This document shows, piece after piece, positions 25,105-63,950 of a DNA stretch of 64,000 bases. The notes under the pieces were generated by a model that saw only the letters and a program-made list of their open reading frames with translations, was not told the origin of the DNA and searched no databases. The DNA lies in assembly GCA_030432635.1 (NCBI GenBank), contig JAUIMB010000004.1, positions 186,001 to 250,000 of the forward strand. Reading direction: 5' to 3'. Position numbers and translations under genes: made by a program. The stretch comes from Bacteroidia bacterium. GTDB lineage: Bacteria; Bacteroidota; Bacteroidia; Flavobacteriales; Flavobacteriaceae. Positions within the stretch are counted from its first letter, which is position 1, and each line of letters starts with the position of its first letter.

Positions 25105-25241
25105 AGGCATATAGTATCCTATGGGCATAGGAATCGAAACATCATTACAGAAGTACTTCGATTAAATACTATTCAGGAAATTAAAGTCTGATAGTAATGT
25201 TAATAATAGATTATTTTCTATTTTTAAAGAAAATAGTCTAT

Positions 25242-26780
25242 ATGTTTAAAAAGGTTTATGGAAGTGCGGTGTTTGGAGTTGAAGCCACTACAATCACAGT
25301 GGAAGTCAATGTTGATAATGGTATCGGTTATCATCTTGTTGGATTGCCCGACAATGCTATAAAGGAAAGTAACTTTCGAATCGCAGCTGCATTGCAGAAT
25401 AACGGCTATAAAATTCCTGGAAAGAAAATCATCATTAATATGTCACCTGCCGATTTGCGTAAGGAAGGTTCGGCATATGATCTCACTTTGGCCATTGGAA
25501 TTTTGTGTGCCACGAATCAAATTCAGGGAAATTATTTAGAGCAGTATCTCATTATGGGTGAATTGTCCTTAGACGGAAAGCTGCAACCCATAAAAGGTGC
25601 ATTGCCAATCGCAGTAAAAGCCAAGGAGGAAGGGTTTAAGCGATTTATTCTGCCAAAGCAAAATGCCAAGGAAGCTGCAATCGTCGATGGTCTGGAAGTT
25701 TTTGGAGTAGAAAATATCAAGCAGGTCATCGACTACTTTGATGGTAATGAACAACTTCAACAGACCCTTATCAATACAAAAGCCGAATTCAATAAGCATC
25801 TGAACTTTCCTGAATTTGATTTTGCCGACGTCAAAGGGCAGGAGAGTATAAAGCGTTGTATGGAAATTGCAGCAGCTGGAGGTCATAATATCATTTTGAT
25901 TGGACCACCAGGCGCAGGAAAAACGATGTTAGCAAAGCGATTACCTAGTATTTTACCACCAATGACACTGGATGAAGCTCTAGAAACCACCAAAATACAT
26001 TCAGTCGTTGGTCGTGTCAAAGCACATTCGGGAATCATGGCACAACGACCCTTTAGGAATCCGCATCATACCATATCAAATGTCGCCTTGGTTGGAGGTG
26101 GCAGTTATCCGCAACCTGGTGAGATTTCCCTGTCACACAATGGTGTTTTGTTTTTGGATGAGTTGCCAGAGTTTAAGCGGGAAGTTTTGGAAGTTATGCG
26201 ACAACCTTTAGAAGATCGCGAAGTGACCATTTCAAGAGCAAAATTTACAGTAACCTACCCATCGTCGTTTATGTTGGTGGCAAGCATGAACCCAAGTCCT
26301 GGTGGCTATTTCAATGATCCTAATGCTCCTGTAACTTCTTCGCCTGCTGAAATGCAACGTTATTTGAGCAAGGTTTCAGGACCTTTATTAGATCGTATCG
26401 ATATTCATATTGAGGTGACACCTGTACCTTTTGATAAACTATCCGATGATAGAAGAGGTGAGTCTTCCATTGAAATACGCAAGCGTGTTACAAAAGCTCG
26501 AATGATACAGACCTTGCGTTTCAAGGATTCACAAAAAGTCCATTACAATGCTCAAATGAATACCAAGCACATCCGAAGCTATTGCAGATTGGATGCTGCA
26601 TCTTTAAAGCTTCTTAAGACAGCTATGGAACAGCTTAACCTGTCGGCAAGGGCTTATGATCGTATTTTAAAGGTATCGAGAACCATAGCCGATTTGGAAG
26701 CTTCCGAACACATTCAAGGCCATCATATTTCCGAAGCCATTCAATATCGCAGTATGGATCGCGAGGGTTGGTTAGGGTGA
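25242..26780 (+). CDS. YifB/ComM-family magnesium-chelatase-like AAA+ ATPase
   Basis: A 512-residue AAA+ protein. The N-terminal ChlI-like (Lon S16-type fold) domain starts [11 protein letters not shown] and contains [10 protein letters not shown]. The ATPase core has Walker [11 protein letters not shown] (near residue 220), Walker [11 protein letters not shown] and the sensor [10 protein letters not shown]. The C-terminal Mg-chelatase domain ends RTIADLEAS. ComM relatives promote branch migration of recombination intermediates in natural transformation. ATG 25242 is chosen because the protein then begins at the conserved N-terminus; 25197 would add 15 unmatched hydrophobic residues. Confidence 0.93.
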
Positions 26781-29170: not shown

Positions 29171-29404
29171 GTTAGGGGCATTTAGGGGCAGTCAATGTAC
29201 GAAAAATAATTTAATAGGGTTTTACACAGTGTTTTGGTAATTAAAAGAGGGCATGTTTAGGGTTCGGATTTCACAGCAGATACTTTGGTGCTGAATAACA
29301 TCTTTGTGATTACGATTCCTGCTTTGAGTTAGATTATGAGAATAAAAATTATTGGCATACATTTATGAAGAATGAAATACATGGTCTTAAACATATTTAT
29401 TGTA

Positions 29405-30523
29405 ATGCAAAAACTAGTTGCTATTCTATCTATCATTTGTCTATTTGGTTGTGATTCAACTGAAAGCAAGCAAAATATTATTAATAAAAAAACGCTTGAG
29501 ATTAATGAATCTAAGTCACCAATAATCAACTTAAAAGAAGCAGATAAACTAGTTCAGCTTCCAATTGATTGTATCCAAGTTGAATATCCTAATAAGTTAA
29601 ATCAGGTTATAGGAGGTGCTGATGATTTGCGCTCACCCAAAGACTTGCATCCTGCCTTTTATGGTTGTTTCGATTGGCACTCGGCTGTCCATGGCCATTG
29701 GAGTTTGGTCACTTTGCTGAAACAGTTTCCGCAGATTGAAAACGCTGAGAATGTAAAGTCCATGCTTCTTGAAAATGTGTCTGCTGAGAACATAAAAAAG
29801 GAGGTGGCCTATTTCCATGGAAAACATAACACATCTTATGAACGCACTTACGGATGGGCTTGGCTGCTGAAGTTAGCCGAGGAACTCCACACTTGGGACG
29901 ATCCAACAGCAAAAACTCTAGAGCGCAATTTGAAACCACTCACCGATTTGATTGTTGATAGATATCTTGAATTTCTACCAAAACTAAACTACCCAATTCG
30001 TGTTGGTGAACATCCAAATACGGCATTCGGACTCTCATTTGCATACGATTATGCAATAACGGTGAACAATCAAGAGCTCAAGAGTTTGATTGAGCAACGT
30101 GCACAGGATTTCTTTATGGAAGATGCTAATTGTCCTTTGGCATGGGAGCCTAGCGGATATGATTTTTTGTCACCTTGTTTTGAAGAAGCGGCTTTGATGA
30201 AACGTGTCTTGGATAGTGAAACATTTAAAACATGGATTGAAGATTTTTTACCTCAACTTAAAAATCCGGATTTCAAATTGGCAACAGGTAAAGTAAGTGA
30301 TAGAAATGATGGAAAGCTTGTGCATCTCGATGGTGTCAACTTTTCTAGAGCATGGAGCTTGAATAAAATTGCTGAAGGAATACCAGAATACCAACACTTA
30401 AAAAAAGTTGCCAACGCACATATCAATTATTCGTTACCCAACATCATAGGCGACAGTTATGAAGGTGGCCATTGGCTTGGGAGTTTTGCTATTTATGCCC
30501 TTAATTCTGTAGAGCGTGATTAA
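29405..30523 (+). CDS. DUF2891 family lipoprotein
   Basis: A 372-residue exported protein. MQKLVAILSIICLFGC is a lipoprotein signal (Cys 16). The mature protein carries the DUF2891 signature: DLHPAFYGCFDWHSAVHGHW, EHPNTAFGLSFAYDYA, and a C-terminal GGHWLGSFAIYAL. Much of it looks helical and could form an alpha/alpha barrel like glycosidase- or epimerase-type proteins; that fold is a guess. No function is established. The stop codon overlaps the start of the Nramp-like gene by eight bases, so the two are translationally coupled and probably work together: a periplasmic-facing protein with a transporter. ATG 29372 is an alternative start. Confidence 0.8.
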   Translation: MQKLVAILSIICLFGCDSTESKQNIINKKTLEINESKSPIINLKEADKLVQLPIDCIQVEYPNKLNQVIGGADDLRSPKDLHPAFYGCFDWHSAVHGHWSLVTLLKQFPQIENAENVKSMLLENVSAENIKKEVAYFHGKHNTSYERTYGWAWLLKLAEELHTWDDPTAKTLERNLKPLTDLIVDRYLEFLPKLNYPIRVGEHPNTAFGLSFAYDYAITVNNQELKSLIEQRAQDFFMEDANCPLAWEPSGYDFLSPCFEEAALMKRVLDSETFKTWIEDFLPQLKNPDFKLATGKVSDRNDGKLVHLDGVNFSRAWSLNKIAEGIPEYQHLKKVANAHINYSLPNIIGDSYEGGHWLGSFAIYALNSVERD

Positions 30524-31736
30524 AAAATGGCTCAAAAATATCGGTCCAGGACCTTTGGTTGCAGCTGCATTTATTGGACCAGGAACGGTCACCGTTTGCA
30601 CGCTTGCAGGTGTTAATTTTGGCTTTACACTACTATGGGCAATGTTTTTGTCAGTACTTGCTACCGTAGTCCTTCAGGAAATGTCGGCACGTTTGGGCAT
30701 TGTTTCTCAAAAGGGGTTGTCTGAGGTCATTCGTACACAAATCCGAAATCCTTTTGTCAAGTTTATCGCAATTACATTGATTTTGTCTGCTATCCTTGTT
30801 GGAAATGCAGCTTATGAAGCTGGAAATATTAGTGGAAGCGTACTGGGTTTGGAAACTATTTGGACAAACCCAAAGCTATCTTTTGGTGTATTGGACTTGA
30901 ATGCCTTTAGTATTTTAATTGGTGGTATTGCATTCGCTTTGTTATATGTTGGCAATTATAAAATCCTCGAAAAGGTTCTGATATCATTGGTAGTGTTAAT
31001 GAGCCTAGCATTTTTGATCACCGCAATACTGACCAAACCCAATTTGTCCCAATTGATCAGCGGACTGTTTTTGCCTAAGGTTACAAGTGGGAATATTCTA
31101 ACAATTATCGCTTTGGTAGGGACAACAGTTGTGCCTTACAATATATTCTTACACGCATCATTGGTCAAGGAAAAATGGTCATCACATTCAGATATAGTGA
31201 TTGCTAGAAGGGATACTGTTGTTGCAGTTGTATTGGGTGGAGTGGTATCTATGTGTATAATTGTTTCAGCCGCAGCTATCAAGGTATCAGAAGTTAGTAG
31301 TGCTGCAGATTTGGCTAAAGGATTAGAGCCTCTATTTGGAGCATATGCAAGGTACCTTCTGGCGATTGGATTGTTTGCTGCCGGAATTACAAGCGCTGTG
31401 ACTGCACCTCTTGCTGCTGCTTATGTAACCACAAATTGTTTAGGATGGTCTTCCAATATGAAATCCAAATCATTTAAGGCCATATGGATGTCTGTTTTGA
31501 TTTTAGGGGTTGTGTTTTCATCATTTGGTTTTAAATCTGTCGAGATCATAAAATTCGCTCAAGTGGCAAATGGGTTGCTATTACCAGTAATTGCTGGGTT
31601 TTTGCTTTGGGTGATGAATAAACATTCGGTCTTAGGACGGTTTAAAAACAACCTAGTCCAAAATATCCTTGGATTTGTAGTCCTTGCAATCGCAATCTTC
31701 TTAGGGATTAAAAGTATACTGAAAGTGTTTGTTTAA
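30516..31736 (+). CDS. Nramp-family transporter lacking the canonical metal-site residues
   Basis: A 406-residue integral membrane protein with about eleven hydrophobic segments. It is Nramp-like: MIKKWLKNIGPGPLVAAAFI at the N-terminus, a TM1 GPGT (21-24) and a TM6 VPYNIFLHAS. True Nramp metal transporters have DPGN in TM1 and MPH in TM6. Here Asp is Gly21, Asn is Thr24, Met is Val206 and His is Tyr208, so all four usual metal ligands are missing. The GTG start overlaps the DUF2891 gene by eight bases. B. subtilis YcsG, an Nramp-family protein, sits beside ycsF in the 5-oxoprolinase region, and pxpABC genes are present 29 kb downstream here. A substrate other than metal, possibly 5-oxoproline, is an inference. 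Confidence 0.85.
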   Translation: MIKKWLKNIGPGPLVAAAFIGPGTVTVCTLAGVNFGFTLLWAMFLSVLATVVLQEMSARLGIVSQKGLSEVIRTQIRNPFVKFIAITLILSAILVGNAAYEAGNISGSVLGLETIWTNPKLSFGVLDLNAFSILIGGIAFALLYVGNYKILEKVLISLVVLMSLAFLITAILTKPNLSQLISGLFLPKVTSGNILTIIALVGTTVVPYNIFLHASLVKEKWSSHSDIVIARRDTVVAVVLGGVVSMCIIVSAAAIKVSEVSSAADLAKGLEPLFGAYARYLLAIGLFAAGITSAVTAPLAAAYVTTNCLGWSSNMKSKSFKAIWMSVLILGVVFSSFGFKSVEIIKFAQVANGLLLPVIAGFLLWVMNKHSVLGRFKNNLVQNILGFVVLAIAIFLGIKSILKVFV

Positions 31737-59543: not shown

Positions 59544-60281
59544 ATGGCAAAAATCATTGATTTCAATTGTGATTTGGGTGAAGGTTTCGGAATCGAGTCT
59601 GAAATCATGCCTTTTATTTCCTCTTGCAATATTGCCTGTGGAGGTCATGCAGGTAATGAAGAAACCATGTCCTATACTGCTCAACTAGCCTGTGAGCATC
59701 AAGTTAAAATTGGAGCTCACCCTTCGTTTCCGGATAAAAAAAACTTCGGAAGAAAGGTTCAAAACCTTTCCTCTGAGCAATTGTTTGAAACCATTCATGC
59801 ACAAATAGAGCGCTTGAATAGCATCCTCAACCAGAAGAAATTGGCTTTGAATCACGTAAAGCCACATGGCGCATTGTATAATTGTGCTGCTGTGGATGAG
59901 CGTATAGCACATGTTGTTGTTGAGGTGGTGAAGTCCTTTGGGAATCATATAGAACTTTATGCTCCATTTCAATCTGTCGTCTCAAATATGGCTGTTCGTC
60001 GTGGTATATCGGTTAAATATGAGGCTTTTGCAGACAGAAACTACAATCCTGATCTCACTTTAGTGTCAAGAAACGAACCTAACGCGTTGATTAAAGATGT
60101 AGATGATATGTTCAATCATGTATATGGAATGATTATGTTAGGAAAAGTTGCTGCCATCAATGGAGTAGGAAAGACCATAAAAGTAGATACGATTTGCGTC
60201 CATGGTGATGGAGTAAATGTTGTTCGTAATTTGAAAATATTAGTCGAAAGGTTAGGTCAACATAATATCATAATTCGCTAA
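59544..60281 (+). CDS. pxpA: 5-oxoprolinase subunit A (LamB/YcsF family)
   Basis: A 245-residue protein. FNCDLGEGFGIESEIMPF, SCNIACGGHAGNEETM, GAHPSFPDKKNFGRK and HVKPHGALYN are hallmark motifs of the LamB/YcsF family. With PxpB and PxpC it hydrolyses 5-oxo-L-proline (pyroglutamate) to glutamate using ATP, which removes a damage product of glutamine and glutamate and lets the cell use it as a carbon and nitrogen source. The genes pxpA-pxpB-pxpC are packed (10 bases, then 8-base overlap). No transporter gene is within the operon. Confidence 0.95.
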   Translation: MAKIIDFNCDLGEGFGIESEIMPFISSCNIACGGHAGNEETMSYTAQLACEHQVKIGAHPSFPDKKNFGRKVQNLSSEQLFETIHAQIERLNSILNQKKLALNHVKPHGALYNCAAVDERIAHVVVEVVKSFGNHIELYAPFQSVVSNMAVRRGISVKYEAFADRNYNPDLTLVSRNEPNALIKDVDDMFNHVYGMIMLGKVAAINGVGKTIKVDTICVHGDGVNVVRNLKILVERLGQHNIIIR

Positions 60282-60291
60282 CGTTTTTAAG

Positions 60292-61023
60292 GTGAATTTT
60301 AAACTTTCATATAAGCAGTTTTCAGAACGTTCGATTTTAGTTGAATGGCCTCCTGTAATTGATGAAAATGTGCTCCATGATGTTACGTGTTTTAAAAATC
60401 ACTTGCTCAATTGTGATATTGAATCAATTGTTTATATAAATATTGCATATAACTCGATATTAATTATTTATAAATTAACTATAGATAAAATCAATGACGA
60501 GATTTTAAGACTTAAAAGTGCATATTTGAGTAGATTGGGTACTCCTAAACCACTTGCTCGGCTTTGGAAAATCCCTGTATGCTATGATGCTGAGTTTGCT
60601 CTTGATTTGAAGTTGATTTCAGAGGAAAAAAGGCTATCAAAGCTTGAAGTGATTGCGTTACATTCTGAAGCAATTTATACAGTTTATTTCGTCGGTTTTT
60701 TGCCAGGATTTTTATACTTGGGAGGCTTGGACAAACGTTTAAATTTTCCAAGAAAATCAAGGCCAAGACCACAGGTTAAAAAAGGAGCTGTTGGTATTGG
60801 TGGTTTTCAAACTGGAATTTATCCGAATGCAAGTCCTGGAGGATGGAATATCATTGGAAATTCACCTTTGGATTTTTTTAATCCGACAATCCATGAGCCT
60901 TGTTTTGCGAGACCTGGAGACAAAGTCAAGTTTGTTCCCATTGACCGATATTTATATGATGACCTTATAATACAGGTTAAGACTGGTGTATTTCAAATAG
61001 AAAGTAAGATTATTGATGGTTGA
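60292..61023 (+). CDS. pxpB: 5-oxoprolinase subunit B (KipI/AHS1 family)
   Basis: A 243-residue protein. The C-terminal cyclophilin-like half has VGFLPGFLYLGGLDKRLNFP, GAVGIGGFQTGIYPNASPGG and IGNSPLDFF, the hallmarks of the AHS1/KipI family. It starts with a GTG at 60292 following the pxpA stop by ten bases. In B. subtilis the homologue KipI also binds the kinase KinA, but no kinA-like partner is expected here. The subunit works with PxpC in the 5-oxoprolinase complex. Confidence 0.93.
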   Translation: MNFKLSYKQFSERSILVEWPPVIDENVLHDVTCFKNHLLNCDIESIVYINIAYNSILIIYKLTIDKINDEILRLKSAYLSRLGTPKPLARLWKIPVCYDAEFALDLKLISEEKRLSKLEVIALHSEAIYTVYFVGFLPGFLYLGGLDKRLNFPRKSRPRPQVKKGAVGIGGFQTGIYPNASPGGWNIIGNSPLDFFNPTIHEPCFARPGDKVKFVPIDRYLYDDLIIQVKTGVFQIESKIIDG

Positions 61024-61864
61024 AGTTTTAAAATCGGGATTGTTGGATACTGTTCAGGATATAGGACGCAATGGCTTTCAGCAATTTGGCGTGCCAATTT
61101 CTGGAGTCATGGACCATGTTTCAGCAGAAAGAGCCAATAGAATACTGGGAAATCATCGTGATGCTGCTGTTATCGAGTGCACAGCTTCAGGTCCAAAACT
61201 TTTGTTTCATCAAGATACCGTTATTTGTATTTCGGGAGCATTTATGTCGCCCAAGCTTAATGGCTACGACCTTGAGAATGACAAAGCGATTTCGATAGCA
61301 AATGGTGACGTGCTGAGTTTTGGAGCTTTGATTTATGGGTTTAGGGCATACGTTGCTGTCTATGGTGGTTTTCAAACCGAAATTGTCATGAAAAGCAGAA
61401 GTATGTATGCCAATATCACGTCTCAATCGAGGCTTTTGAAAGGTGACTGCATTCCAATTTTGGATAAGGAAGAAACAGCTTTTAGTTCTTTTTCTTCATT
61501 GAAACTTAAAAATGACCATTTCGATTCTATACCTTTAAGTGTCTACAAGGGTCCAGAGTTTAATGGTTTATCGGTTGAGCATCAGCGTTTACTGTGCCAT
61601 CAGGAATTTACGGTTTCAAGGGATAGCAACAGAATGGCGTATCAATTAAATGAGAGGGTTGAAAATGCGTTGGAATCAATTATAACATCTTTGGTGTTGC
61701 CAGGAACTGTCCAATTGACACCTGCAGGAAAGCTATTGATATTGATGCGCGACGCTCAAACCACAGGAGGTTACCCAAGGGTTTTTCAACTTTCGGAATC
61801 GTCAATAAATTGTTTGTCTCAAAAGGCAATTGGAGCAAAGGTTAAGTTTGTGTGTAGAAAATAG
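61016..61864 (+). CDS. pxpC: 5-oxoprolinase subunit C (KipA/AHS2 family, biotin-dependent carboxyltransferase-like)
   Basis: A 282-residue protein. The AHS2 family pattern is seen in GLLDTVQDIGRNGFQQFGVP, GVMDHVSAERAN, AVIECTASGPKLLF and RDSNRMAYQL, with QLTPAGKLLILMRDAQTTGG toward the end. The name carboxyltransferase is a database label; in this setting it is the oxoprolinase subunit. ATG 61016 is used; a TTG at 61013 is adjacent. The start overlaps pxpB by eight bases. Confidence 0.93.
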   Translation: MVEVLKSGLLDTVQDIGRNGFQQFGVPISGVMDHVSAERANRILGNHRDAAVIECTASGPKLLFHQDTVICISGAFMSPKLNGYDLENDKAISIANGDVLSFGALIYGFRAYVAVYGGFQTEIVMKSRSMYANITSQSRLLKGDCIPILDKEETAFSSFSSLKLKNDHFDSIPLSVYKGPEFNGLSVEHQRLLCHQEFTVSRDSNRMAYQLNERVENALESIITSLVLPGTVQLTPAGKLLILMRDAQTTGGYPRVFQLSESSINCLSQKAIGAKVKFVCRK

Positions 61865-61944: not shown

Positions 61945-62460
61945 ATGAAAAAATTAGGGATTTTAATTTTAGGGATTATCATTGGAGCTTTGGCCATGTA
62001 CTTTTATTTTCATAATGACCAAAACAATAGTGACATGGGACAAATACCACAGCCAGAAGGATTGATTAATCCTACAGAAATTCAAACGTTAACGCAAGCT
62101 TACAACGATAGGTATAATACAGTTACCGATACTTATTTTAAAGGTGTAGTTGGAGGTGATAACCGATCTTCTTGGTATGCGCTTGAGGATTTGGAAAATT
62201 TCCTCGCACTTGCCAAAAAGGAAGCTACGGATCTAGGATATACAATGGATGGTGTGCGTCTATATTTAGGAGCACATCCGTTGGTTGATGGTATTCCTGG
62301 TTATACAACCATCCTTTTTGTGCCAACTGGTTATGAAAATACATCGGAAGGCAATCTTGTCAAGACTGGTCTTAAAAAAGGCGGTAATGATATTGGAGGA
62401 GCCAATGGTCTTGATAAAGGTTCGGATGGAGTGCCTCCTAGTGCAAATTATCCACAATAA
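61945..62460 (+). CDS. Hypothetical membrane-anchored protein
   Basis: 171 residues. One N-terminal membrane helix (LGILILGIIIGALAMYFYF) and then a periplasmic domain with a helix SWYALEDLENFLALAKKEAT, the strand GVRLYLGAHP and TTILFVPTGY, followed by a Gly/Asp/Asn-rich end with NDIGGANGLDKGSDG. I do not recognise the family. It precedes a membrane protein and a kinase on the same strand and may belong to one operon. Confidence 0.6.
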   Translation: MKKLGILILGIIIGALAMYFYFHNDQNNSDMGQIPQPEGLINPTEIQTLTQAYNDRYNTVTDTYFKGVVGGDNRSSWYALEDLENFLALAKKEATDLGYTMDGVRLYLGAHPLVDGIPGYTTILFVPTGYENTSEGNLVKTGLKKGGNDIGGANGLDKGSDGVPPSANYPQ

Positions 62461-62469
62461 TCTTAACTA

Positions 62470-63180
62470 TTGAGAGATTTTTTTTTAAATAATTATTCAG
62501 TAATAACTAAATCGGTTGAGCTTATTGCTGCTATTGCTGGTTCTTATTATTTAAAAGGGAACAAAAATTCTGTCTTAAAAATTTTTGTATACTTTCTGTG
62601 GCTGACATTCTTTGTTGAACTCATAGCTGAATATGCTGGTTATATGCGTGACAATTACGACCATGAATGGTTCATTGCCATAAAGAATAGCGTTTTTTGT
62701 ACTAATACATGGTTGTATAATATTTACTCGTTTTTTACAATTGGTTTGCTGGGCGTGTTTTATTCAGGTTTATTAAGAAAACAGTCCTTCAAACTATTGA
62801 TAAGAGCTATCGTAATTTTTTATAGCGTTTTTTCAATATGTTATTACACTTTTACGGATGCCTTTTTCGTATTTGGATTGCCTTATGATGATATTTTGGC
62901 TTCAATTATCGTCTCAATTTATGTGATTTGTTATTTTATTGAATTGATAAATAGCGAGTACATTCTATATTATTATAAACTGCCATCATTTTATATAAGC
63001 GTCGCTTTGTTATTATGGTATCTTTGTGTGACTCCATTATTCATATTTAATGGATATTTCTTAGAAGTAAACACTGATTTTGTGATTTTCAGATATTTAC
63101 TTTTACTATTTATTAATGTATGTACATATTTATTCATTTCATTTGGGTTTTGGTATTCACTCAAGAAAACCAAGCCATAA
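62470..63180 (+). CDS. Multi-pass membrane protein of unknown function
   Basis: 236 residues with six or seven hydrophobic segments covering most of the length (for example VLKIFVYFLWLTFFVELIA, LLIRAIVIFYSVFSICYYT, ILASIIVSIYVICYFIELI). No metal or catalytic motif is seen. The reading frame has a stop at 62464 and no ATG before residue 57, so the start is TTG 62470. It overlaps the downstream kinase gene by 61 bases, a long overlap that suggests tight coupling, so it may act as the kinase sensor partner. This role is inferred. Confidence 0.6.
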   Translation: MRDFFLNNYSVITKSVELIAAIAGSYYLKGNKNSVLKIFVYFLWLTFFVELIAEYAGYMRDNYDHEWFIAIKNSVFCTNTWLYNIYSFFTIGLLGVFYSGLLRKQSFKLLIRAIVIFYSVFSICYYTFTDAFFVFGLPYDDILASIIVSIYVICYFIELINSEYILYYYKLPSFYISVALLLWYLCVTPLFIFNGYFLEVNTDFVIFRYLLLLFINVCTYLFISFGFWYSLKKTKP

Positions 63181-63950
63181 ACAAAGAGCAAATTGCTTTA
63201 ATTGCTTATGTCATTTTCGCCGTATTATTGTTATCAGTTATGGTGATTCTATTTTTTGTGACCTTTCAAAAACGTAAGAATAAACTCTTGCTTGATAAAA
63301 TTGAGCAGCAGAAACGGTATGACGAGGAAATTTCTCGAACACAAACTGAAATACAAGAGCAGACTCTAAAGCATTTAGGTTGGGAATTACACGACAATAT
63401 TGGTCAATTGTTAGTCTTTGCGAACATGCAGCTCAATGCCATTGTGCCAAAACTACCAGACCCTATCAAAAATAGGGCTGAAGAAGCTACCGATAGTGTC
63501 AAAAAGAGTCTAGCTGAAGTGCGTTCGCTTTCTAAGTCCCTTAACAATGATGTTTTGTTGAACATAGGTTTTGAAGAATCCATTACCAATGAATTGAATC
63601 GATTGAAACGTATGTCCTTTGAATCAGCAACGTTGTCGGTAAATGGAGATAGGCATGAATTGAATGACCCTAAACACGGGATTATCCTTTTTAGGATTTT
63701 GCAGGAATTCTTTTCAAACTCTGTCAAATATTCAGAAGCTACAACAATTGATGTCACATTAGAGTATACACCTGAAGCATTGATAATCACGGCAACAGAT
63801 AATGGTATTGGTTTTGAGGTCTCTTCTGCAGAAAAGGGTTCCGGACTGATCAATATGAAAAGTAGGGCAGAGTTGATCAATGGGACATTCAATATCAACT
63901 CACAACCAAATCAAGGCGTGACTTTGAAGATAAAGTACCCATTTGATTAA
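63120..63950 (+). CDS. NarL-type sensor histidine kinase (HisKA_3 + HATPase)
   Basis: A 276-residue kinase with a short N-terminus, one clear membrane helix (ALIAYVIFAVLLLSVMVILFF, written without its last residues) and a coiled coil with KRYDEEISRTQTEIQEQTLK. The HisKA_3 phospho-acceptor is His in LGWELHDNIGQLLVFA, and HATPase has FRILQEFFSNSVKYSE, the G1 DNGIGF and the G2 GSGLINMKSRAELI. There is no sensor domain. A NarL/LuxR-type regulator is expected but lies outside the window if present. The ATG is within the upstream gene; no later ATG is credible. Confidence 0.87.
   Translation: MYIFIHFIWVLVFTQENQAINKEQIALIAYVIFAVLLLSVMVILFFVTFQKRKNKLLLDKIEQQKRYDEEISRTQTEIQEQTLKHLGWELHDNIGQLLVFANMQLNAIVPKLPDPIKNRAEEATDSVKKSLAEVRSLSKSLNNDVLLNIGFEESITNELNRLKRMSFESATLSVNGDRHELNDPKHGIILFRILQEFFSNSVKYSEATTIDVTLEYTPEALIITATDNGIGFEVSSAEKGSGLINMKSRAELINGTFNINSQPNQGVTLKIKYPFD

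Follow-up and report, generated by a model that had tools for sequence, protein, structure and literature searches.

A putative 5-oxoproline uptake and cleavage unit of Flavobacteriaceae whose genes lie apart in one genome

How does 5-oxoproline reach a 5-oxoprolinase whose genes have no transporter gene beside them? This question is raised by a 64,000-nucleotide stretch of DNA from a member of the Flavobacteriaceae (Bacteroidia bacterium, GenBank assembly GCA_030432635.1, contig JAUIMB010000004.1, positions 186,001 to 250,000; here, the window), in which pxpA, pxpB, and pxpC lie in that order on the same strand with intact frames. The original prediction placed pxpABC at 59544-61864, noted no transporter at the locus, and proposed that a distant pair of genes at 29.4-31.7 kb, encoding a DUF2891 protein and an Nramp-like protein, supplies 5-oxoproline to the enzyme. 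Pfam and NCBIfam matches bear out the identity of the pxp genes, the neighboring open reading frames (ORFs) bear out the lack of a transporter gene, and matches to PF11199 and PF01566 confirm the pair.

We consider it probable that the five genes constitute one functional unit, that a chromosomal rearrangement has divided their operon in the window genome, and that the NRAMP-fold carrier imports 5-oxoproline for PxpABC. The carrier would bring 5-oxoproline (pyroglutamate, a cyclized glutamate) across the inner membrane, perhaps coupling this organic substrate to an ion. The three PxpABC subunits are encoded together, and PxpABC is predicted to open the 5-oxoproline ring in the cytoplasm at the expense of ATP, yielding glutamate. 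The DUF2891 protein, held by a lipid anchor, would assist from the extracytoplasmic side, most likely as an enzyme that releases or processes the substrate, and the two separated halves would still act together.

Linkage of the carrier to 5-oxoprolinase genes

We searched 120 genomes of Flavobacteriaceae, representing 119 genera, for homologs of the window genes. Carriers were assigned to the class of the window carrier (here, the T class, with the motifs GPGT and VVPYN) at 41% identity or more and E values up to 7.3e-54; the next match had 30% identity. The counts include matches with internal stops or broken frames (G013 here; G472 and G482 in the Bacteroidota sample described below). The PxpA family PF03746 was present in 85 genomes, DUF2891 over cut-off in 58, and the carrier class in 77. 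Carrier and pxpA occurred together in 76 genomes, the carrier alone in 1, pxpA alone in 9, and neither in 34 (Fisher p = 1.9e-20, a nominal value uncorrected for shared ancestry). Thus, the carrier was found in 76/85 genomes with pxpA compared to 1/35 without it, and the co-occurrence expected from the original prediction holds for the carrier, since 76 of the 77 genomes with a carrier contain pxpA compared to 9 of the 43 without one.

The two genes are also physically linked. The carrier gene lay on the same strand as pxpA and within 2.5 kb of it in 72 of 77 cases, 69 of them with a distance of no more than 161 bp, and by its coordinates it was upstream of pxpA in all 72. The five unlinked carriers were those of the window genome (27.8 kb from pxpA), G018 (525 kb, opposite strand), G079 and G115 (pxpA on another contig), and G065, which had no pxpA and a carrier cut off by the contig end. 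DUF2891, carrier, and pxpA were contiguous in 36/120 genomes. Within the genus, 22 of 23 genomes had the carrier, which adjoined pxpA in 20/22 and DUF2891 in 20/22; the two carriers not adjoining pxpA were those of the window genome and of G120, where the contig ends. A position beside pxpABC, as in the PxpT/YcsG type of carrier described below, is therefore found in the relatives and not in the window.

Beyond the family, we scanned named genome contigs for DUF2891 and analyzed the best 80 of 586 confirmed loci, several of which end at contig edges. All five genes, namely DUF2891, carrier, pxpA, pxpB, and pxpC, were present in this order at 52 of the 80 loci, which is the contiguity that the original prediction led one to look for, and 2 more loci extend to pxpB. 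The remaining loci had DUF2891 and the carrier only (7), DUF2891 and pxpABC without the carrier (4), or DUF2891 alone (15). Nine of the 15 lone DUF2891 loci were traced to their genomes, and a T-class carrier with 42-58% identity was encoded elsewhere in seven of these; none was found in the other two (G144, G147). At four of the carrier loci in the traced genomes (L222, L223, L224, and L226), the carrier is followed by pxpABC. Among 247 Bacteroidota genomes, which overlap with the family sample by a few genomes, each of the 33 carriers with 45% identity or more fell within the 51 genomes with pxpA over cut-off (p = 2.5e-28), and 28 of the 33 adjoin pxpA. Overall, a unit of carrier and PxpABC is well supported by linkage. 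Separately, a metagenome-assembled genome labeled Opitutaceae (L161) contains a DUF2891-carrier pair 66-67% identical to the window pair; this is either a misbinned contig or a gene transfer into another phylum.

Table 1. Positions of the genes and segments discussed in the window.
Feature	Position	Strand	Basis
DUF2891 protein, exported lipoprotein	29372-30523	+	PF11199 459 bits
NRAMP-fold carrier, T class (GPGT / VVPYN), GTG start	30516-31736	+	PF01566 286 bits
Chromosomal block between carrier and pxpA	31769-59457		blastn of window and following contig against congener G045
pxpA, 5-oxoprolinase subunit	59544-60281	+	PF03746 263 bits; NF003814 243 bits, cut-off 226
pxpB, 5-oxoprolinase subunit, GTG start	60292-61023	+	PF02682 203 bits; TIGR00370 168 bits, cut-off 145.55
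pxpC, 5-oxoprolinase subunit	61013-61864	+	PF02626 226 bits
171-aa ORF, hydrophobic 236-aa ORF, HisKA_3 histidine kinase	61945-63950	+	same order after pxpC in G045; Pfam match of the kinase

DUF2891 and its possible role

The frames of DUF2891 and the carrier share 8 bases, and the true start of DUF2891 is likely the ATG at 29405 (MQKLVAILSIICLFGC...). The lipobox cysteine C27 was invariant in 12/12 sequences and kept in at least 90% of 39 aligned rows. On visual inspection, several DUF2891 members from other Bacteroidota carry a standard signal peptide and a Gln close to the cleavage site. An AlphaFold model built with 39 sequences (predicted local distance difference test, pLDDT, 82.6; predicted template modeling score, pTM, 0.80) superimposed on the CJ0554 structure (8ieu/8iev), for which our literature search yielded no paper, with template modeling scores of 0.77/0.88, and the sequence matched 8ieu with E 1.1e-67, so the protein belongs to DUF2891 both by its over-cut-off PF11199 match and by its fold. 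Past CJ0554, the fold neighbors were weak (GH9, GH76, GH127, unsaturated glucuronyl hydrolase, and LanC-like toroids), and no activity can be assigned from them at E values of 0.025 or more. Its signal peptide and helical, toroid-like fold led us to reject the idea that DUF2891 forms a membrane component of the carrier.

The distribution of DUF2891 bears on whether it takes part in 5-oxoproline use at all. DUF2891 was present in 22 of the 247 Bacteroidota genomes, 7 of which have a carrier with at least 45% identity (p = 0.016) and 10 of which have pxpA (p = 0.005). It is not an obligate partner, as neither pxpA nor the carrier was present in 10/58 DUF2891 genomes of the family and neither pxpA nor any T-like carrier in 11/22 of the phylum. 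These genomes, together with the 15 lone loci among the best 80, would be explained if DUF2891 acted independently outside the cytoplasm and had entered the operon in Flavobacteriaceae without taking part in 5-oxoproline use, a reading that we regard as a serious possibility, though a somewhat unlikely one. Several associations point the other way. DUF2891 adjoins the carrier in 38/58 family genomes and, as noted above, in nearly all genus genomes with a carrier, and it adjoins pxpA in three family genomes in which the carrier is missing. At one locus (L273), DUF2891, a fused HyuA-HyuB hydrolase, and a carrier lie in one stretch, and most of the traced genomes with a lone DUF2891 locus encode a T-class carrier elsewhere. 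In addition, a study of Campylobacter jejuni describes cj0552-cj0554 as encoding DUF969, DUF979, and DUF2891, with DUF969/DUF979 having been put forward as a 5-oxoproline transporter (PMC12795558). The C. jejuni system thus resembles the window in encoding DUF2891 with a suggested 5-oxoproline transporter, and it differs in the type of transporter and in that the Bacteroidota DUF2891 members are exported; the 340-aa CJ0554 chain aligns from residue 15, so that a signal peptide would hardly fit in front. The proposal that the pair is an uptake system is supported for the carrier by its linkage to pxpA and is not established for DUF2891 as one half of it, given that DUF2891 is exported and more weakly, partly independently distributed (p = 0.004 to 0.016).

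Three observations suggest that DUF2891 may contribute to the extracytoplasmic release of 5-oxoproline. First, secreted peptidase genes stand beside DUF2891 at some of 131 loci, in which genomes repeat: an M16 homolog at 10 (one being in the query's own genome) and a tricorn-type homolog at 8 (two with <30% identity and two in the query's own genome). Second, pyroglutamyl peptidase I (C15, PF01470) had no match in the window genome and a match in 1/120 family genomes, at 30.6 bits, in a search that found matches in 4/14 control genomes. Third, one report states that Sec-exported Bacteroidetes proteins mostly start with pyroglutamate (PMC10653852). Against such a role, lone DUF2891 genes are numerous, export of the C. 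jejuni member is uncertain, and other peptidases could serve. An extended scheme, in which DUF2891 would be an outer enzyme freeing pyroglutamate from Q-rule N-termini with the neighboring secreted peptidases, the metal-free NRAMP protein would carry it inward, and glutamate would be regenerated by PxpABC or HyuAB, we regard as doubtful. The peptidase genes seen beside DUF2891 include tricorn-type genes at L155, L165, L169, L170, and L300, and M16 genes at L164, L174, L179, L187, L202, and L090.

Gene order in the window genome

We compared the window and the following contig with part of the congener G045 (305-485 kb of C9). Window positions 29.56-31.73 kb, with DUF2891 and the carrier, match 447.4-445.2 kb of G045, and positions from 59.85 kb onward, with pxpABC and the genes after it, match 444.9 kb downward. 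The intervening 31.77-59.46 kb match 350.3-323.0 kb, and all segments have one orientation. The block between the two halves, 27.7 kb in size, therefore lies ~94 kb beyond pxpA in G045, where it is colinear, and the block order is changed exactly at the boundary between carrier and pxpA. Because 20/22 congeners are contiguous, the split is most simply derived. The original prediction's description of a split system is right for the window genome, where congener contiguity and the G045 block order make it look like a derived state. In addition, ~34 kb at 71.3-105.2 kb from the window start (G000:C22, beyond the window) have no match in the compared part of G045 and lie between two colinear stretches, making this a candidate for a further insertion or rearrangement.

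A break located precisely at the boundary of carrier and pxpA, when the 20 other resolved congeners are contiguous, could also mean that the assembly is in error and the genome has an intact operon. We consider this improbable, given that the block is a colinear chromosomal segment within a 296-kb contig, that reading frames are intact on either side, and that similar separations occur in G018 and, at the phylum level, in G478, G501, G535, and G616.

The start of pxpA lies 58 bases past a 95-aa ORF, which itself comes after folE, and no transporter gene adjoins pxpABC on this side or downstream, where pxpC is followed by a 171-aa ORF, a hydrophobic 236-aa ORF, and a histidine kinase; neither of the two ORFs had a Pfam match. 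The window genome has a single PF03746 match. PxpC, which passes its Pfam cut-off, scored 166 bits against NCBIfam NF045499, whose equivalog cut-off is 500; its gene is listed from a TTG, and the next codon, the ATG at 61016, is the likelier start. The kinase is encoded at 63120-63950, and a kinase match was found at 23/68 loci with pxpC, in 22 of the 23 within 3.5 kb downstream of it. The three genes after pxpC, which stayed with the pxp half, are a candidate module that possibly regulates 5-oxoproline use. At L095, genes of these three kinds (small ORF, hydrophobic ORF, HisKA_3 kinase) are located upstream of the carrier, together with one for a LuxR-type response regulator; in the 20 kb that follow the window, we found no response regulator resembling that of L222. 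On the other side of the separated pair, upstream of DUF2891, lies a gene for a 527-aa ATPase (25197-26780), presumably Mg-chelatase/ComM-like, and its position as left neighbor of the cassette recurs in L086, L088, L091, and others, as judged by the sequence start.

Motifs and probable cargo of the carrier

By sequence, the best solved relative of the window carrier is 7qia (E 1.4e-37), which we take to be an NRMT-type transporter, followed by MntH structures. The carrier shares family PF01566 with these NRAMP/SLC11 metal transporters; unlike them, it lacks DPGN in transmembrane helix 1 (TM1) and MPH in TM6, motifs whose D, N, and M residues are metal ligands in NRAMP structures. In a first alignment set, IGPGT[VI] was found in TM1 of 72/72 T-class proteins and TTVVPYN in TM6 of 69/72, with three variants. 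In the partly overlapping set used to build a tree, GPGT was found in 40/40 T-class rows, L136 and L137 keep DPGN and MPH, and L097 and L127 have neither. Because its metal-holding residues are replaced, the carrier probably moves an organic substrate. The window genome encodes a second, distant NRAMP-like protein with 24% identity to the carrier, and the genus contains an NRAMP-like group (L121-L123, L125, L126) that is ~27-30% identical to it and has IGTGS in TM1.

According to one report, growth of Corynebacterium glutamicum on 5-oxoproline requires PxpT and PxpABC (PMC13274462). As described there and in a study of Bacillus subtilis, PxpTABC and pxpA-ycsG-pxpBC resemble the cassette studied here in encoding an NRAMP-family protein with the 5-oxoprolinase genes (PMC13274462, PMC10448178). 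Because PxpT and YcsG are already published, an NRAMP-type 5-oxoproline carrier is not new; we met no description of a DUF2891-NRAMP-PxpABC cassette in the literature searched. Given their gene context, we took two plasmid-encoded NRAMP proteins of Citrobacter and Moraxella, whose genes neighbor pxp genes and which have GPGF/VGGY motifs, as YcsG/PxpT-like, and used the Citrobacter protein as a stand-in. Judged on this stand-in, the T class differs from the PxpT/YcsG type in identity (25% for the window carrier) and in its motifs (GPGT/VVPY compared to GPGF/VGGY). In the tree, which was rooted on the stand-in group by choice, the stand-in is also widely separated from the T class. The window differs further from the PxpT/YcsG operons in having DUF2891 and in its split operon. 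As far as sequences indicate, 5-oxoprolinase genes appear to have NRAMP partners from two groups, both lacking the metal motifs, and the window carrier appears to be a divergent variant of the published 5-oxoproline carrier. Linkage and the PxpT work together argue strongly for 5-oxoproline as the substrate, with PxpT apparently belonging to another clade (PMC13274462).

The T-class carrier is also linked to a second type of hydrolase. On haloarchaeal plasmids, HyuA and HyuB (PF05378/PF01968/PF02538) are encoded directly downstream of a carrier that is 46-48% identical to the window carrier and keeps GPGT, and the order carrier-HyuA-HyuB was found in 6/7 haloarchaeal carrier regions (L098, L099, L282-L285). 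These cassettes are like the window's relatives in the carrier and in its place directly upstream of hydrolase genes, and unlike them in that the hydrolase is from the unrelated hydantoinase/oxoprolinase family and that neither DUF2891 nor pxpABC occurs in the regions examined. Two further traced loci have the carrier followed by a fused HyuA-HyuB of 1252 aa (L225) or preceded by HyuB (L228). The Bacteroidota sample also contains 19 distant carriers (34-43% identity), and HyuA-HyuB adjoin the carrier at 7 of the 17 loci that we took from these (G543 and G625 were left out), in three genera (L270-L274, L276, L277). HyuAB and PxpABC have no Pfam family in common here, so the simplest cargo to link both would be 5-oxoproline or a cyclic amide like it. 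We do not claim the HyuAB proteins as 5-oxoprolinases.

The main cargo could instead be a cyclic amide related to 5-oxoproline or some other derivative of an amino acid, with 5-oxoproline as a side substrate or an intracellular product. The HyuAB neighbors could be hydantoinase, caprolactamase, or carboxylase, and a carrier of a GPGTVL subgroup (L262) lies beside a 2-oxoacid:ferredoxin oxidoreductase gene. We consider this alternative unlikely, given that all 33 close carriers of the Bacteroidota sample were found in pxpA genomes only. The distant GPGTVL subgroup as a whole (L262-L264) is encoded beside genes resembling 2-oxoacid:ferredoxin oxidoreductase (Pfam checked for L262), which makes another substrate likely for that subgroup. 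That the carrier is a divalent-metal importer serving a metal need of nitrogen metabolism, with a regulatory link to pxpABC, agrees with its PF01566 membership, with NCBI names, and with the raised cell Mn(II) upon YcsG overproduction and the binding of MntR to the operon promoter reported for B. subtilis (PMC10448178), data for which we keep it as an alternative, but the loss of DPGN and MPH throughout the T class and the linkage to two unrelated hydrolase types, HyuAB included, make it very unlikely.

Several observations weigh against the import of 5-oxoproline for PxpABC by a five-gene unit. Nine of the 85 family genomes with pxpA have no carrier, and DUF2891 is tied less tightly than the carrier (family p = 0.0085 with pxpA, 0.004 with the carrier). 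The 19 distant Bacteroidota carriers showed no association with pxpA (4/19), and no oxoprolinase gene was found next to the T-class carrier of L227 (Bowmanella), of Natrononativus (the haloarchaeal region without HyuA-HyuB), or of a Pseudoalteromonas plasmid. Caprolactamase and acetophenone carboxylase belong to the HyuAB family as well, and no NCBIfam equivalog cut-off was passed by any of five HyuA/HyuB proteins tested. Among seven plasmid pxpA regions, two contain an NRAMP gene (Moraxella, Citrobacter) and five do not. Finally, the authors of the PxpT work keep metal transport by PxpT possible (PMC13274462), and YcsG is reported as a Mn(II) importer (PMC10448178). Two broader ideas were rejected on distribution: NRAMP carriers are not universal partners of pxp genes, given the two of seven plasmid regions above, another of which has a TRAP transporter, and the T-class carrier is not common in the class of Bowmanella, where it was found in 3/274 genomes at 45-49% identity (one being Bowmanella itself), with one more match at 32%.

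These results address a live dispute over whether metal or 5-oxoproline is the cargo of NRAMP-fold proteins encoded beside 5-oxoprolinase genes. An entire clade is without the metal motifs, and its genes are associated with two hydrolase families that bear the name of 5-oxoproline and are unrelated to each other, so the name "divalent metal transporter" is probably wrong for its members. DUF2891, a family with a solved structure, is tied to 5-oxoproline genes in Bacteroidota as it is in Campylobacter, and its role thereby becomes testable; if the extended scheme were true, a DUF2891 recycling loop would serve the exported proteome of a phylum.

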